From: Dictyoglomus sp. NZ13-RE01
Lineage (GTDB): Bacteria > Dictyoglomota > Dictyoglomia > Dictyoglomales > Dictyoglomaceae
DNA: 64,000 nt
Assembly (NCBI GenBank): GCA_002878375.1
Contig: NIRF01000003.1
Coordinates: 1-64,000, forward strand
Direction of reading: 5' to 3'
Below the pieces are notes generated by a model that did not search any database, was not told the DNA's origin, and saw only the letters and a program-made list of their open reading frames with translations. A program made the position numbers and the translations under genes. Shown here piece by piece: positions 38,494 through 59,233 of the stretch (the stretch's first letter is position 1; each line of letters opens with the position of its first letter).

Positions 38494-38603
38494 GTGACAG
38501 GTGACACGTAACAGGTAACAGAGAAAGAACGTGACGGGTGATGAGTGACACGTGACGGGAAAAAGGCCGTGATGCGTGATACGTGACGCGTAACAGGTGG
38601 CAT
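38494..38603 (+). repeat. Heptad array B (three blocks, 13 units)
   Basis: Block 1 at 38494-38521: GTGACAG, GTGACAC, GTAACAG, GTAACAG. Block 2 at 38531-38558: GTGACGG, GTGATGA, GTGACAC, GTGACGG. Block 3 at 38569-38603: GTGATGC, GTGATAC, GTGACGC, GTAACAG, GTGGCAT. Short A/G-rich spacers separate the blocks, and blocks 1 and 3 are both preceded by AAGGCC. The array lies between the mazF remnant and a decayed Phd gene and overlaps the latter's end. Confidence 0.85.
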
Positions 38604-47316: not shown

Positions 47317-47898
47317 TTATATCTCTATTATTTTTCCTTCCTCAATTTTATAAGATTTGCCACACTCTTTACAAGTAGCTTCTCCTTTATCGTCAAACTC
47401 CAATCTTACCCCACATTTGCATACCCAGCCAATTTGTCTTGCTGGAACTCCTATTACAAGAGCATAGGGTGGTACATCCTTTGTTACTACTGCTCCTGCT
47501 CCTACAAAGGCATATTCTCCTATAGTTACTCCACATACTATGGTGGCATTTGCTCCTATAGTTGCTCCTTTTTTAACTATTGTTTTTCTAAATTCATGTT
47601 TTCTTTCTATAAATGCTCTTGGATTTATTACGTTGGTAAATACACAGGAAGGTCCACAAAAAACATCATCTTCTATTTCTACTCCTTCATAAACACTTAC
47701 GTTATTTTGTATCTTCACATTATTTCCAATTTTTACCCTTGGTCCTATCATTACATTCTGCCCTATTACACAGTTTTTACCAATAACTGTATGGGGAAGA
47801 ATATGGCAAAAGTGCCAGATTTTGGTCCCTTCTCCTATTTCTACAGGATCATCTATATAGGAGCTTTCATGAACAAAGTATTTTTTGTTTTCAGACAT
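47317..47898 (-). CDS. WbpD/WlbB-type N-acetyltransferase with C-terminal zinc ribbon
   Basis: 193 residues of left-handed beta helix ([60 protein letters not shown]) as in enzymes that acetylate the 3-amino group of UDP-2-acetamido-3-amino-glucuronate. The C-terminus adds CKCGVRL ... [10 protein letters not shown], a four-Cys zinc ribbon seen in many WbpD relatives. It lies beside the WbpB- and WbpA-like genes. GGAGGTG precedes the ATG and a TATAAT (minus strand, 47911-47916) lies between it and heptad array C. Confidence 0.85.
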
Positions 47899-47920: not shown

Positions 47921-47997
47921 GTGATGGGTGACGCATAATGGGTGACTGGTAAAGGGAAATGGGTGACGCGTGACGGGGGACGAGTGACAGGAAAGAG
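47921..47997 (+). repeat. Heptad array C (11 units in perfect 7-nt phase)
   Basis: Units from 47921: GTGATGG, GTGACGC, ATAATGG, GTGACTG, GTAAAGG, GAAATGG, GTGACGC, GTGACGG, GGGACGA, GTGACAG, GAAAGAG. No insertion or deletion breaks the 7-base phase over 77 bases although single units have diverged. The array runs opposite to the genes around it and lies upstream of the WbpD-like promoter. It faces array D across the four-helix-bundle remnant. Confidence 0.85.
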
Positions 47998-47998
47998 A

Positions 47999-48097
47999 CT
48001 ATTTTTCATTTCTTTCTCTCCTTTTTAGAGATTTTATTAGACCAATTAAGAGTTTTCTAACTTTCAATACATCCAAATCCTTATGAGTCCTAATCAT
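47999..48097 (-). pseudogene. Four-helix-bundle (23S rRNA intervening-sequence type) protein remnant
   Basis: ATG at 48097 opens MIRTHKDLDVLKVRKLLIGL then IKSLKRRERNEK and a stop, 32 residues. The first dozen residues match the start of four-helix-bundle (IVP/S23) proteins (MI-R-HKDL-VW type). The last 15 match their C-terminus (GLIKSLKRRE type); the middle 80 or so are missing. An in-frame internal deletion is the simplest explanation. GGAGAATGAGAG precedes the ATG. It lies between arrays C and D. Confidence 0.6.
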
Positions 48098-48109
48098 CTC
48101 TCATTCTCC

Positions 48110-48137
48110 TCATCACCCGTTACCCCTCACTCGTCAC
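48110..48137 (-). repeat. Heptad array D (4 units), encodes the 3' end of the WbpB-like gene
   Basis: On the minus strand: GTGACGA (48131-48137), GTGAGGG (48124-48130), GTAACGG (48117-48123), GTGATGA (48110-48116). The GTG ACG AGT GAG GGG TAA codons give VTSEG and the stop of the upstream gene. Confidence 0.8.
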
Positions 48138-49073
48138 CCTTTCAAGCACTTTAATTACCCTCAACCCTTCATATCCATCTGTTTTTGGAGTTTTTCTTTC
48201 TCTTACACATTCAATGAAATGCAAAAGTTCCTCTTTTAATGGTTCCTTTCTCTCTACAGGAATTATCTCCCTATCCTCCTTTTTGGCAACAGGTATACTT
48301 CCATTCCAATCTACCTTATGAGGATATAGGAATAATTTTTCTTCAGTGGTATCATCAAAAACAAGCATTCCTCTTGAGCCTATCACTACTAATTTTTGTT
48401 CTTTATAGGGATGCCACCAGCTTACAAAGATATGTCCCTTGATTCCATTATTAAATTCAATAGATGCCAAAGCAATATCATCTATTCCTTTTGTGATAAA
48501 TGAGGCACCTTGGTAATTTATCTTTTTAGGTTCTGCTTCAGTTAACATAAGAGTTAAAGATATATCGTGAGGGGCAAGACTCCACCACACATTTTCGTCA
48601 GTTCTTATTTTACCTACATTAACTCTATGAGAATAAATATATAATATATCTCCTATTGATCCTTGAGAAATAAGCTCCTTCAGTTTCACCACTCCTGGAT
48701 GATACTGCAATATATGTCCTACCATGATAATTCTATTTTTTTCTTCTGCCATTTTTACAAGCTCTTCTCCCTCTCTCACCGAAGTAGTCATTGGCTTTTC
48801 TATAAATACGTCTTTTCCAGATAAAAGAGCTTTTTTAGCAAGTTCATAGTGAGTAATAGCTGGAGTTGCTATAGCTATAGCTTTTATTTCAGGATTATTA
48901 AGTAGCTCATTAAAATCTGTAGTATAATTTATATCTGGATAATGTTTTTTCCTTTCCTCTATAACCTCCTGACTAAAATCACAAGCGGTATGAATTACTC
49001 CAAGCTCGTAAAAATTTCTCAAAATATTCTTTCCCCAATATCCAAGTCCCACAACTCCAATAAACCTTTCCAT
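48120..49073 (-). CDS. Gfo/Idh/MocA oxidoreductase (WbpB/WlbA-like)
   Basis: About 317 residues. Rossmann loop GVVGLGYWGKNILRNF, cofactor region IATPAITHYELAKKAL and EKPMTTSVREGEELV (catalytic Lys), and VWWSLAPHDISLTLML (catalytic His/Asp region). It resembles enzymes that oxidise C3 of UDP-GlcNAcA. Its final codons (VTSEG) come from heptad array D and its 5' flank is array E, so the gene is bracketed by same-orientation arrays. Start 49073 or a GTG at 49079. Confidence 0.85.
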   Translation of the reverse strand: MERFIGVVGLGYWGKNILRNFYELGVIHTACDFSQEVIEERKKHYPDINYTTDFNELLNNPEIKAIAIATPAITHYELAKKALLSGKDVFIEKPMTTSVREGEELVKMAEEKNRIIMVGHILQYHPGVVKLKELISQGSIGDILYIYSHRVNVGKIRTDENVWWSLAPHDISLTLMLTEAEPKKINYQGASFITKGIDDIALASIEFNNGIKGHIFVSWWHPYKEQKLVVIGSRGMLVFDDTTEEKLFLYPHKVDWNGSIPVAKKEDREIIPVERKEPLKEELLHFIECVRERKTPKTDGYEGLRVIKVLERVTSEG

Positions 49074-49088
49074 CTCCACTTATCTCCC

Positions 49089-49123
49089 TTCTTACCTCTC
49101 ACTCGTCACCTGTCACCTGTCAC
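49089..49123 (-). repeat. Heptad array E (5 units), encodes the 3' end of the wbpA-like gene
   Basis: Minus strand: GTGACAG (49117-49123), GTGACAG (49110-49116), GTGACGA (49103-49109), GTGAGAG (49096-49102), GTAAGAA (49089-49095). The codons GTG ACA GGT GAC AGG TGA give VTGDR and the stop of the dehydrogenase. The lower end lies just ahead of the ribosome binding region of the WbpB-like gene. Confidence 0.8.
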
Positions 49124-51862
49124 CCCCAAAATACTCACTCTATCATCCACCTTTATCCCTCTTTTTCTCAATGCATTTCTTGTATCTACAATTAATTTTG
49201 CATCTTTAAATATCATTTCATAATCAATATTGTCGTGGTCAGTTATAATAAGAATGCAATCCGCATTTTTAATGCTATTTTCATCTAATACACAAGATTT
49301 CATGTATTTTACTTCTTTTGTTTTACTATTCTCAATTTTTATTTCAGGTATGTAAGGATCATAAAATTCTACTTCTCCTCCAAGTTCTTCAAGCAATGGA
49401 ATAATTTTTAAAGCAGGCGACTCTCTTGGGTCCGCTATATTGGGTTTGTAGGCAACACCAATTACAAGTATTTTAGATCCATTTACAGGCTTTTTCTGCT
49501 TATTTAGAGCTTCCATAACAAGCTGAACAATATATTTTGGCATACTATCATTTATCTCTCCTGCAAGCTCTATAAATCTCACATTAAAATCATATTCTTT
49601 AGCCTTCCAAGAAAGATAAAAGGGATCAATGGGAATACAATTGTGAACATATATTCCACTTCCAACAGCAAAAGTATGTGTATTTTCGACCTCCAACGAA
49701 TATACATCTATATTATCACTGTTTTCAAATTCGATCTTTTTAACAATAACTGAAGGAATTACTGAATTGATTTTTTTATTTATTTTTTTCAAGTTAAATT
49801 TAAAGTAATTATTATACTTTTTCCCTTTTTCATCTAAAAACCATCCTGAAAATCTCTCCAAATTATCATATCCCGTAATTCTTAAATGATTCTTATCCTT
49901 AGAAATAGAAGGATATATGCCCATTTCTTGAAGAAGATATATAACTTGATGAAAAAGTACATCACTAATTGAAAAATATCCAATTGCTAAAGAATTATCG
50001 TTATGATTATATTCACGTCCATTTTTACTATATCTTCTCTTACCAGTTCTATAATGAATATCTCCATCACCTCTAAATAAACCCTTCAATAGCTCCTTCT
50101 TTAAGTCTAAAGAAGCAGACATTAGTTCATCTGGTATTCTCATGGAGTACGAATCTTCACCACATCCAAGTCTACTTACTAATAACCATCCAAGTAACGG
50201 TGAATTAATGCGAATAGTCTTAGATTTAAATTTAGGAGACAAATACAAAGAATAAGTTATTCCTAATTTCTTAAGTATAAATTCTATGTCATTAAATAAT
50301 TCAGTTTCATCTCTATTTATAGTTATCCTTATCCTATAACATCCTTTCTCTTTAGTAGCACAACCTTCGGAAAGATAATATCCAATAAATCTTGCCCAAT
50401 CCTTATCAATATTAACTACCGCTGGAAACTTCGTAGTAGATGGTCCCCTTCCTGTTAATAGTAATAAAGAATTATGATCGATATCTATCTTTTTTTCTTT
50501 CTCAAGTTTTCTAAAAATACCAAGAGGAATATAATCATCTTTTATATAATCATATCTTCTATCGGTTTCACATACAGAATATATCTCTTCTTTATAATCT
50601 TTCCATGAACCATTTATTATCTTTACTCTAACTCTACTTTCCCATTCTTCACTTAGCTCCTTAATAATATCAATAATAATTTCTTTTTTTTCTATTTTTT
50701 CATCAACATCTTCTTTGAATATAGGTAACATATCTCCTACTTTCAAATCTTTTGCTTCTACTACTTCAATATTCTCCTTATTAATACGTAACATAGGGTG
50801 TTTATCCGTCACTATAAGTTTTCTATTATCATTCGTTATAATTTTTACAAGATTTCCATTATATTTTCTTCTAAATAGATAAGAAACAGGCATCCATGAA
50901 GACCTTAAATCACTACTATCTAAACTATTAACAAAAAGTTCTTTAGGTTTTATACATTCTAAATCCCCTATTTTGTATACTTTATTTTCTTTTCTCTCCA
51001 ATTCGAAAAGTTCTTCTAAAGAATAAACATTTGATATTTTGGAATTTTTAACCCAAATTTTCTCCCTTCCTAATAAACAATGTCCCCCTAAACCTGGTCC
51101 TGGATAAAAGGGCATAAATCCATAAGGTTTTGTGGATGCTGCAGAAATTACTTCCCATATATCTATTCCCATCTTTTCACATAACATAGCAAGCTCATTT
51201 ATAAAGGAAATATTCACAAGACGAAAGATATTCTCAAGAAGTTTTTCCATTTCTGCCACTTTTGGAGAGGATACTTTATGCACCATAGGAAAAATTAGAG
51301 AATAAAGTTTTCCTGCCTTCTCTGTGGAAATTTCATTTATTCCTCCTACAACTTTTGGAATATCTTTTGTAGTAAACTTTTTATTCCCCGGGTCAACTCT
51401 TTCTGGTGAAAAGGCAAGATAAAAGTCTTCTCCACCTTTAAGCCCACTTTTTTCTAAAATTGGAAGCACTACTTCTTCTGTAGTTCCAGGATATGTGGTA
51501 CTTTCTAATACTACTAATTGTCCTTTCTTTAAATATTTAGAAATTTCAGTAGTAACATTTATAATATACGAGATATCTGGTTCTTTATGAGGACCTAAAG
51601 GTGTAGGTACACAAATAACTACTGCATCAGAATCTTTTACTGGCTCAAAATCTATGAAAGCTTTAAGATTTCCATTATTTACAACCTCAAAAAGTTCATC
51701 ACTTTTTATATCATCAATATATGAAATCCCTTTATTAACCATCTCAACCTTTTTAGGATTTTGCTCAATGCCATATACTATAAGTCCAGCTTTTGCAAAT
51801 TCTACAGCAAGGGGAAGTCCTACATATCCAAGTCCCACAATAGAGATCTTATTAAAGCCCAT
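49106..51862 (-). CDS. wbpA: UDP-N-acetylglucosamine 6-dehydrogenase (WbpA type), intein-containing
   Basis: 918 codons: N-extein residues 1-261, intein 262-741, C-extein 742-918. After splicing the enzyme has 438 residues, normal for UDP-GlcNAc dehydrogenase. SIVGLGYVGLPLAVEFA (NAD loop), ESTTYPGTTEE, and the catalytic PGPGLGGH joined to CIPIDPFYLSWKA are present, plus the C-terminal VIGVAYKPNIADPRESPAL. The intein sits directly before the catalytic Cys. The last codons are from heptad array E. GAGGAGGAAAATTATAG precedes the ATG. Probably makes UDP-GlcNAcA for the locus. Confidence 0.92.
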   Translation of the reverse strand: MGFNKISIVGLGYVGLPLAVEFAKAGLIVYGIEQNPKKVEMVNKGISYIDDIKSDELFEVVNNGNLKAFIDFEPVKDSDAVVICVPTPLGPHKEPDISYIINVTTEISKYLKKGQLVVLESTTYPGTTEEVVLPILEKSGLKGGEDFYLAFSPERVDPGNKKFTTKDIPKVVGGINEISTEKAGKLYSLIFPMVHKVSSPKVAEMEKLLENIFRLVNISFINELAMLCEKMGIDIWEVISAASTKPYGFMPFYPGPGLGGHCLLGREKIWVKNSKISNVYSLEELFELERKENKVYKIGDLECIKPKELFVNSLDSSDLRSSWMPVSYLFRRKYNGNLVKIITNDNRKLIVTDKHPMLRINKENIEVVEAKDLKVGDMLPIFKEDVDEKIEKKEIIIDIIKELSEEWESRVRVKIINGSWKDYKEEIYSVCETDRRYDYIKDDYIPLGIFRKLEKEKKIDIDHNSLLLLTGRGPSTTKFPAVVNIDKDWARFIGYYLSEGCATKEKGCYRIRITINRDETELFNDIEFILKKLGITYSLYLSPKFKSKTIRINSPLLGWLLVSRLGCGEDSYSMRIPDELMSASLDLKKELLKGLFRGDGDIHYRTGKRRYSKNGREYNHNDNSLAIGYFSISDVLFHQVIYLLQEMGIYPSISKDKNHLRITGYDNLERFSGWFLDEKGKKYNNYFKFNLKKINKKINSVIPSVIVKKIEFENSDNIDVYSLEVENTHTFAVGSGIYVHNCIPIDPFYLSWKAKEYDFNVRFIELAGEINDSMPKYIVQLVMEALNKQKKPVNGSKILVIGVAYKPNIADPRESPALKIIPLLEELGGEVEFYDPYIPEIKIENSKTKEVKYMKSCVLDENSIKNADCILIITDHDNIDYEMIFKDAKLIVDTRNALRKRGIKVDDRVSILGVTGDR
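49640..51079 (-). mobile_element. Intein with LAGLIDADG homing endonuclease
   Basis: 480 codons. It starts with Cys1 (CLLGREKIW) and ends VYVHN-like as GIYVHN, followed by the host Cys as +1 nucleophile. Block B is NDNRKLIVTDKHPML with T91 and H94 (intein numbering). Blocks F/G are IDVYSLEVENTHTFAVGSG and IYVHN with penultimate His. Two LAGLIDADG-type helices are seen: ARFIGYYLSEG (about 229-239) and LLKGLFRGDGDI (about 330-341), with acidic residues E and D. All splicing residues are present, so it is expected to be active. Confidence 0.93.
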
Positions 51863-59191: not shown

Positions 59192-59233
59192 CAATCACTG
59201 ATTACCATTTACCCATAACTCATCACTCGTCAC
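59192..59233 (-). repeat. Heptad array F (6 units in phase)
   Basis: Minus strand: GTGACGA (59227-59233), GTGATGA, GTTATGG, GTAAATG, GTAATCA, GTGATTG (59192-59198). All six keep the 7-base phase though the last four have drifted. The array starts with the last base of the upstream gene's stop codon, again sense-oriented at a gene 3' end. Confidence 0.75.

Follow-up and report, generated by a model that had tools for sequence, protein, structure and literature searches.

Oppositely oriented arrays of tandem heptamers enclose the remnant of a small gene in the window, the 64,000-nucleotide stretch of Dictyoglomus sp. NZ13-RE01 DNA analysed here (Table 1). The feature is probably an internally deleted copy of a mobile unit of about 0.5 kb, in which a gene for a four-helix-bundle (4HB) protein of the IVP/S23 family lies between two arms of tandem short repeats (usually 7 bp), each arm being the reverse complement of the other. 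This probability applies to the statement as a whole, including the mechanism proposed below, which taken by itself is tentative and rather doubtful. In the genomes surveyed, the arms match copy by copy and are periodic, they accompany 4HB genes across numerous phyla, duplications include both arms and gene, and sites are filled, partly filled or empty.

Table 1. Features at and around the 4HB remnant, in positions of the window
Feature	Position	Strand	Remark
Hexapeptide-repeat (WbpD-like) acetyltransferase gene	47317..47898	-	Host gene on the 3' side of the element; anchor for the syntenic site
Array C, tandem heptads	47921..47988	+	3' arm when the element is read along the gene
32-codon in-frame IVP/S23 4HB remnant	47999..48097	-	Syntenic remnants in G001 and G004
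Array D, inverted heptads GGGTGAC GAGTGAG GGGTAAC GGGTGATGA	48110..48139	-	5' arm
Gfo/Idh/MocA oxidoreductase gene	48120..49079	-	Host gene on the 5' side of the element
Third GTGACNN array	49091..49123	-	Just upstream of the Gfo/Idh gene; orientation as array D

The window copy is an in-frame, internally deleted remnant of the arm-4HB-arm unit. The original prediction had described oppositely oriented heptad arrays around a 32-codon 4HB remnant that keeps its first dozen and last 15 or so residues, and this description holds: the translation, MIRTHKDLDVLKVRKLLIGLIKSLKRRERNEK, retains about 12 N-terminal and about 17 C-terminal residues of an IVP/S23 4HB protein. At 32 codons the remnant is too short to match any Pfam or NCBIfam model by itself, including PF05635 and TIGR02436, and it was identified because 4HB copies are present at the syntenic site in two relatives (G001 and G004, see below). 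The window copy is dead, or mobile only in trans, since most of the protein has been lost. Array C is composed of the heptads GTGATGG GTGACGC ATAATGG GTGACTG ... GTGACGC GTGACGG GGGACGA GTGAC, and array D overlaps the stop and last codons of the Gfo/Idh gene, the C-terminus of which (VTSEG) is encoded by the array. Within the window, GTGACNNGTGACNNGTGAC with up to three mismatches has 23 matches (0.07 in shuffles) and GTGACNNGTGAC has six exact matches (0.01 expected). Arms C and D pair with a local score of 15.5, whereas the best of 1000 shuffles reached 14.0, and the folded strand of the element is at -81.9 kcal/mol (z=-4.3). The window copy has an ORF between inverted, self-matching arms and tandem units of about 7 bp, and it is present or absent among relatives; these are the features of the class described below.

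Using orthologues of the acetyltransferase, we located the site in four near relatives of the window's own genome (G000): G001 from the same genus, G004 from the sister genus, and G002 and G003, which belong one to the former and one to the latter genus or vice versa. In G001, degenerate heptads (GTGATAA GTGATAG GTGATAT GTGATAA) are followed by an ORF and then by inverted remnants, CACCTATTACACATTATAATGGAGG, that resemble the right flank in the window. The ORF (L074:1385-1561) encodes 58 residues, MIRTHKDLDVWRASILETQIVISKELGYLKEDKIIDKIDTIRRMLLGLIKNIRIKSSK, with MIRTHKDLDVW...IRRMLLGLIKNIR retained, and matches TIGR02436 (E=7e-4). The first 10 residues of the window remnant are those of this copy, and the C-terminus also aligns. 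The G001 arms have drifted too far to register as a pair (pair score 8.5). The G004 remnant (L018:about 1480-1620) retains the first 38 model positions behind the heptad GGTGACGGGG and has lost the C-terminal part; it scores 6e-12 with TIGR02436 (over the cut-off) and 2.9e-15 with PF05635. In G002 and G003 the site is empty, with the host genes about 15-20 bp apart and no heptads. The 4HB gene at this site is decaying in three different ways (G000, G001 and G004). The original prediction had proposed to look in a close relative for a full-length gene or an empty site; the relatives provided differently truncated copies and clean empty sites. Given the remnants in three genomes and the array-free empty sites in two, gene and arrays are therefore present or absent jointly.

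Heptads elsewhere in the window have other settings. Three GTGACNN blocks in the same direction, with short A/G-rich spacers between them and no inverted partner nearby, are located at 38494-38601(+), and a degenerate heptad array at 59200-59233(-) directly follows a small ORF and immediately precedes what, judged by eye, resembles a broken DUF2283 gene. A DUF4258-like and DUF2283 gene pair is also encoded inside the heptad/4HB locus that holds the G004 remnant (L018:951-1428). Other small gene cassettes may also be bordered by heptads. An intein that contains a LAGLIDADG domain (Pfam Intein_splicing 5e-19) splits the UDP-sugar dehydrogenase gene of the window (49106-51862(-)), so that another selfish element is only one gene from the 4HB remnant. 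The orthologue of this dehydrogenase in G001 is similarly long (906 aa), and those in G002 (445 aa) and G003 (432 aa) are without the insert.

A link between heptad arrays and 4HB genes, as suggested in the original prediction, stands in the form of matched inverted arms around most 4HB genes, but GTGAC is only one of the heptads that make up such arms. We scored arms as the local score of the upstream flank against the reverse complement of the downstream flank. In the main set of 126 distinct 4HB genes from 43 genomes, partly chosen for GTGAC heptads, the mean score was 21.3 for own pairs, 8.3 for mismatched pairs within a genome and 7.8 for those between genomes. The 99th percentile of between-genome mismatched pairs (14.4) was exceeded by 89 of the 126 genes (71%), and for 84 of the 126 the own downstream flank was the best partner in the entire set. 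In the part of this set not chosen for GTGAC heptads, 18 of 27 genes were over the threshold. The validation set comprised 80 4HB genes whose genomes had been taken without regard to heptads; with the threshold fixed beforehand, 44 (55%) were over it, compared to 0.6% of mismatched pairs, the own flank was the best partner in 48 of 80, and flanks were periodic in 65 of 80. Matched arms were also identified for 22 of 29 4HB genes on viral contigs and 6 of 10 on plasmids, mostly cyanobacterial (off-pairs 4-7% in the viral and plasmid sets). As a control, neighbouring ORFs in the heptad-picked loci have matched arms in 10 of 729 cases (about 1.4%; Fisher p about 2e-78).

Detectable matching arms are lacking for 29-45% of the 4HB genes in the main and validation sets. 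Across many bacterial phyla, most of the sampled 4HB (S23/IVP) genes are in a mirror-image arm layout. Such a layout might be coincidental, resulting from common intergenic simple repeats that pair through their composition, and an excess of intergenic heptads is known from several bacteria (PMC4692102). However, this explanation is rejected by the own- versus mismatched-pair scores, the mismatches within genomes, the neighbouring ORFs and the unselected validation set, and we give it practically no weight.

The choice of search terms affected how the link appeared. A search for GTGAC alone near 4HB genes in other phyla apparently refuted it, since every copy has its own heptad and the link therefore looks absent in most genomes; this result was overturned when the flanks were found to contain other heptads. 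As a search family, PF05635 had no match in G000 or in the control genomes, and TIGR02436 was productive instead. Genes matching TIGR02436 are encoded in 41 of 42 genomes chosen from heptad loci; the count is 16 of 41 for genomes spread over the phyla, and the 14 well-known control genomes have none. When species genomes were scanned for four consecutive GTGACNN units, at least 116 stretches were returned, and the matches listed include two full-length 4HB genes, both inside an inverted heptad pair at 15-50 bp. One genome, G014, has 19 TIGR02436 matches, many of them 4HB-like and arranged as divergent neighbouring pairs, with no matched arms in the one copy scored. Since the few copies examined there are without matched arms, the lifestyle of this 4HB subfamily may differ from that of the others.

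Both flanks are periodic, with a period of 7 bp for 74 of the 126 main-set genes, 8 bp for 17 and 9 bp for 5, and no stretch inside the 4HB genes reaches the lag-7 level of the flanks. The arm words differ from copy to copy (e.g., GGTAAAA/TTTTACC, GAAGACA/TGTCTTC, AAGGCTC/GAGCCTT, CAGGTAT/ATACCTG and GTGACNN/GTCACNN). In G044, a Saprospiraceae MAG, long TGACGAACG-type arrays are present beside 4HB copies (L206), and several copies have period 9. The whole element has a median length of about 510 bp. The arms are tight around the gene, the median gap being 24.5 bp before the start codon and 16 bp after the stop codon, as might be the case if they served the cis-regulation of a resident gene (as binding sites for 4HB autoregulation, or as an attenuator) and were not mobile ends. 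Nucleic-acid binding, proposed for Avd and similar relatives, is also consistent with regulation. We consider this reading very unlikely: there is no conserved arm sequence that the protein could read, copies within a genome have arms in common in just 1.4% of comparisons, the gene occurs in either orientation relative to co-directional neighbours, it is patchy between close relatives, and whole units are duplicated.

We conclude that arm, 4HB gene and arm very probably constitute one small mobile element, because in two genomes the complete unit occurs at two places whose surroundings are unrelated. In G048, copies on different contigs (L230 and L232) share 551 bp at 88% identity that comprise arm, gene and arm and end at the arms, and the flanks are unrelated. 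In G287, a distance of about 216 kb separates two copies (L439 at C1:1520305 and L438 at C1:1736782) that share 532 bp at 95% identity, with homology that extends slightly past the arms. The 4HB gene has a premature TAA in both of these near-identical copies, suggesting that the unit moved in trans or was duplicated later. The duplicated units and the patchy syntenic site support the earlier proposal that the inverted arrays are ends of a mobile unit. Across genomes, arms are shared in 39% of pairs with >60% protein identity, compared to 1.4% for different copies within a genome. The element is mostly found between co-directional genes, in either orientation (24 same, 14 opposite), and the next ORFs are at median distances of 16 and 24 bp from the outer edges of the arms. 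Insertions were identified in conserved operons, for example between cas10 and cmr3 (type III-B CRISPR operon), cas6 and cas4, and nrdB and nrdA (ribonucleotide reductase). Lacking is any movement enzyme encoded by the element, and no target-site duplication was seen at L230/L232, where none can be called because the ends are repeats.

Heptad hairpins without an ORF are common. Among the GTGAC-scan matches listed, 34 converging GTGAC...GTCAC pairs (<700 bp) were identified versus 4 of opposite polarity, with loops mostly of 3-150 bp, and the ORF-less pairs outnumber those with a 4HB gene. The galE-yicC gap of Geobacter argillaceus contains a 4HB copy flanked by GTGACNN arms (L213), whereas that of its sister genome G083 has an ORF-less GTTCANN hairpin; either the site was struck twice or heptad turnover is fast. 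In G000, five cassettes (C1:323118, C8:38977, C10:65829, C19:16159 and C19:17505) have the order stop codon, GTGACNN heptads and a near-identical terminator (GGGAGCAGGGAGAAAATCC.TGCTCC and a T run), and similar terminators form a cluster of four in G003. The hairpins, the galE-yicC gap and the terminator cassettes leave room for an explanation in which heptad hairpins are independent, terminator- or regulator-like intergenic repeats and 4HB genes home into their loops, so that the arms are the target rather than part of the element. This explanation appears unlikely to us, though it deserves more weight than the regulatory one. It is at odds with the array-free empty sites of G002 and G003, with the copying of arms along with the gene in L230/L232, with the tracking of protein relatedness by arm sequence across genomes, and with the rarity of matching arms around control ORFs even in heptad-chosen loci.

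For the arm-gene-arm element as a mobile unit, the matching of arms without a conserved word implies that some process keeps both arms of a copy alike. Either selection on pairing (as an RNA stem) or correction of the DNA by fold-back copying upholds the match. A test of wobble pairs for RNA-pairing selection (186 G.U versus 161 A.C, p=0.20) returned no RNA-strand signal, thus DNA-level correction is at least equally likely. An early indication of RNA-level selection in this test (p=0.02 with 62 arms) faded with more data, to p=0.11 and then p=0.20. The purine-rich 5' arm (72 of 89) was considered as a transcript-strand signal and rejected; it is uninformative on strand, since an inverted pair has equal polarity on both strands.

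The proposed mechanism is as follows. The unit would slip into gaps between operon genes, and when transcribed in either direction its arms could pair into an extended stem whose loop carries the ORF, similar to the intervening sequences of 23S rRNA. Cutting of the stem by RNase III, on the same analogy, might leave the insert nearly harmless to its host operon. Slippage by 7 bp would alter arm length. Quasipalindromes are corrected by fold-back copying, and such copying may keep the arms of one copy alike; together, slippage and fold-back copying would account for heptads that drift between copies yet match within one. The role of the protein is the weakest part of the mechanism. Avd is an accessory protein of retroelements, and the 4HB protein, as a pentameric and distant relative of Avd, may bind the hairpin and, so bound, aid re-insertion via host or other enzymes. 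A relative with a solved structure, 2GSC, which is the S23 protein XCC0516 of Xanthomonas campestris, is described as a homopentamer (PMC4990558).

The closest known system is the 23S rRNA intervening sequence (IVS) with an S23/IVP ORF, as in Leptospira and Coxiella. The protein family (PF05635/TIGR02436) is common to both, as is a patchy distribution. S23 ORFs of rRNA IVSs have complementary ends and the IVS is excised from the precursor RNA by RNase III, and in Coxiella the ORF decays while the element persists (PMC4990558). Like an IVS, the window element is bordered by complementary, stem-forming sequences (score 15.5; z=-4.3), but it is located between Gfo/Idh and acetyltransferase genes, not inside an rRNA gene, and the borders of the hairpin-flanked 4HB element are tandem 7-mers of copy-specific sequence. 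By analogy, the hairpin-flanked 4HB element would work like a 23S rRNA IVS, outside rRNA. Tandem intergenic heptamers, some as inverted pairs, are known from Nostoc/Calothrix, Xanthomonas (GGGAATC, as in X. campestris ATCC 33913), Geobacter metallireducens and Beggiatoaceae (TAACTGA) (PMC4692102, PMC2700814, PMC4679880); PMC4692102 reports that they have no general association with mobile elements. Unlike these, the repeats of the 4HB element bracket a gene and move along with it. As in miniature inverted-repeat elements (MITEs), short, internally deleted derivatives retain inverted ends. However, the terminal repeats of a MITE family share a sequence read by a transposase, whereas the 4HB element has its own word in each copy and no transposase; the low sharing of arms within genomes and the lack of a visible target duplication at L230/L232 also differ from MITEs and insertion sequences. 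The 4HB protein is distantly related to Avd and bAvd of diversity-generating retroelements (E=0.0032 and 0.024, respectively, both under the curated cut-offs).

S23 or four-helix-bundle genes were looked for in the texts of PMC4692102, PMC2700814 and PMC4679880 and were not found, and the open-access literature provided no published account that joins heptamer repeats with S23 ORFs. This agrees with the expectation that the link would be new, although earlier work may exist in subscription journals, which were mostly outside that search. It is possible, at somewhat less than an even balance, that these units are a new class of bacterial mobile element, present in many phyla, with ends that are matching inverted stacks of 7-bp repeats particular to each copy and a small 4HB protein as sole product; the class would be one source of heptamer repeats, and the rRNA IVSs would be members that landed in rRNA genes. 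Such a class would pose a puzzle, in that movement would occur without a recognisable recombinase or a fixed end sequence, and the reason for the period of 7 is part of it. The odd rRNA intervening sequences would be placed in a wider class, and intergenic heptamer repeats, which are enriched in many bacteria and have been sparsely treated in detail (PMC4692102), would have a possible origin. S23/IVP, a common and functionally unexplained protein family, gains a consistent DNA context.
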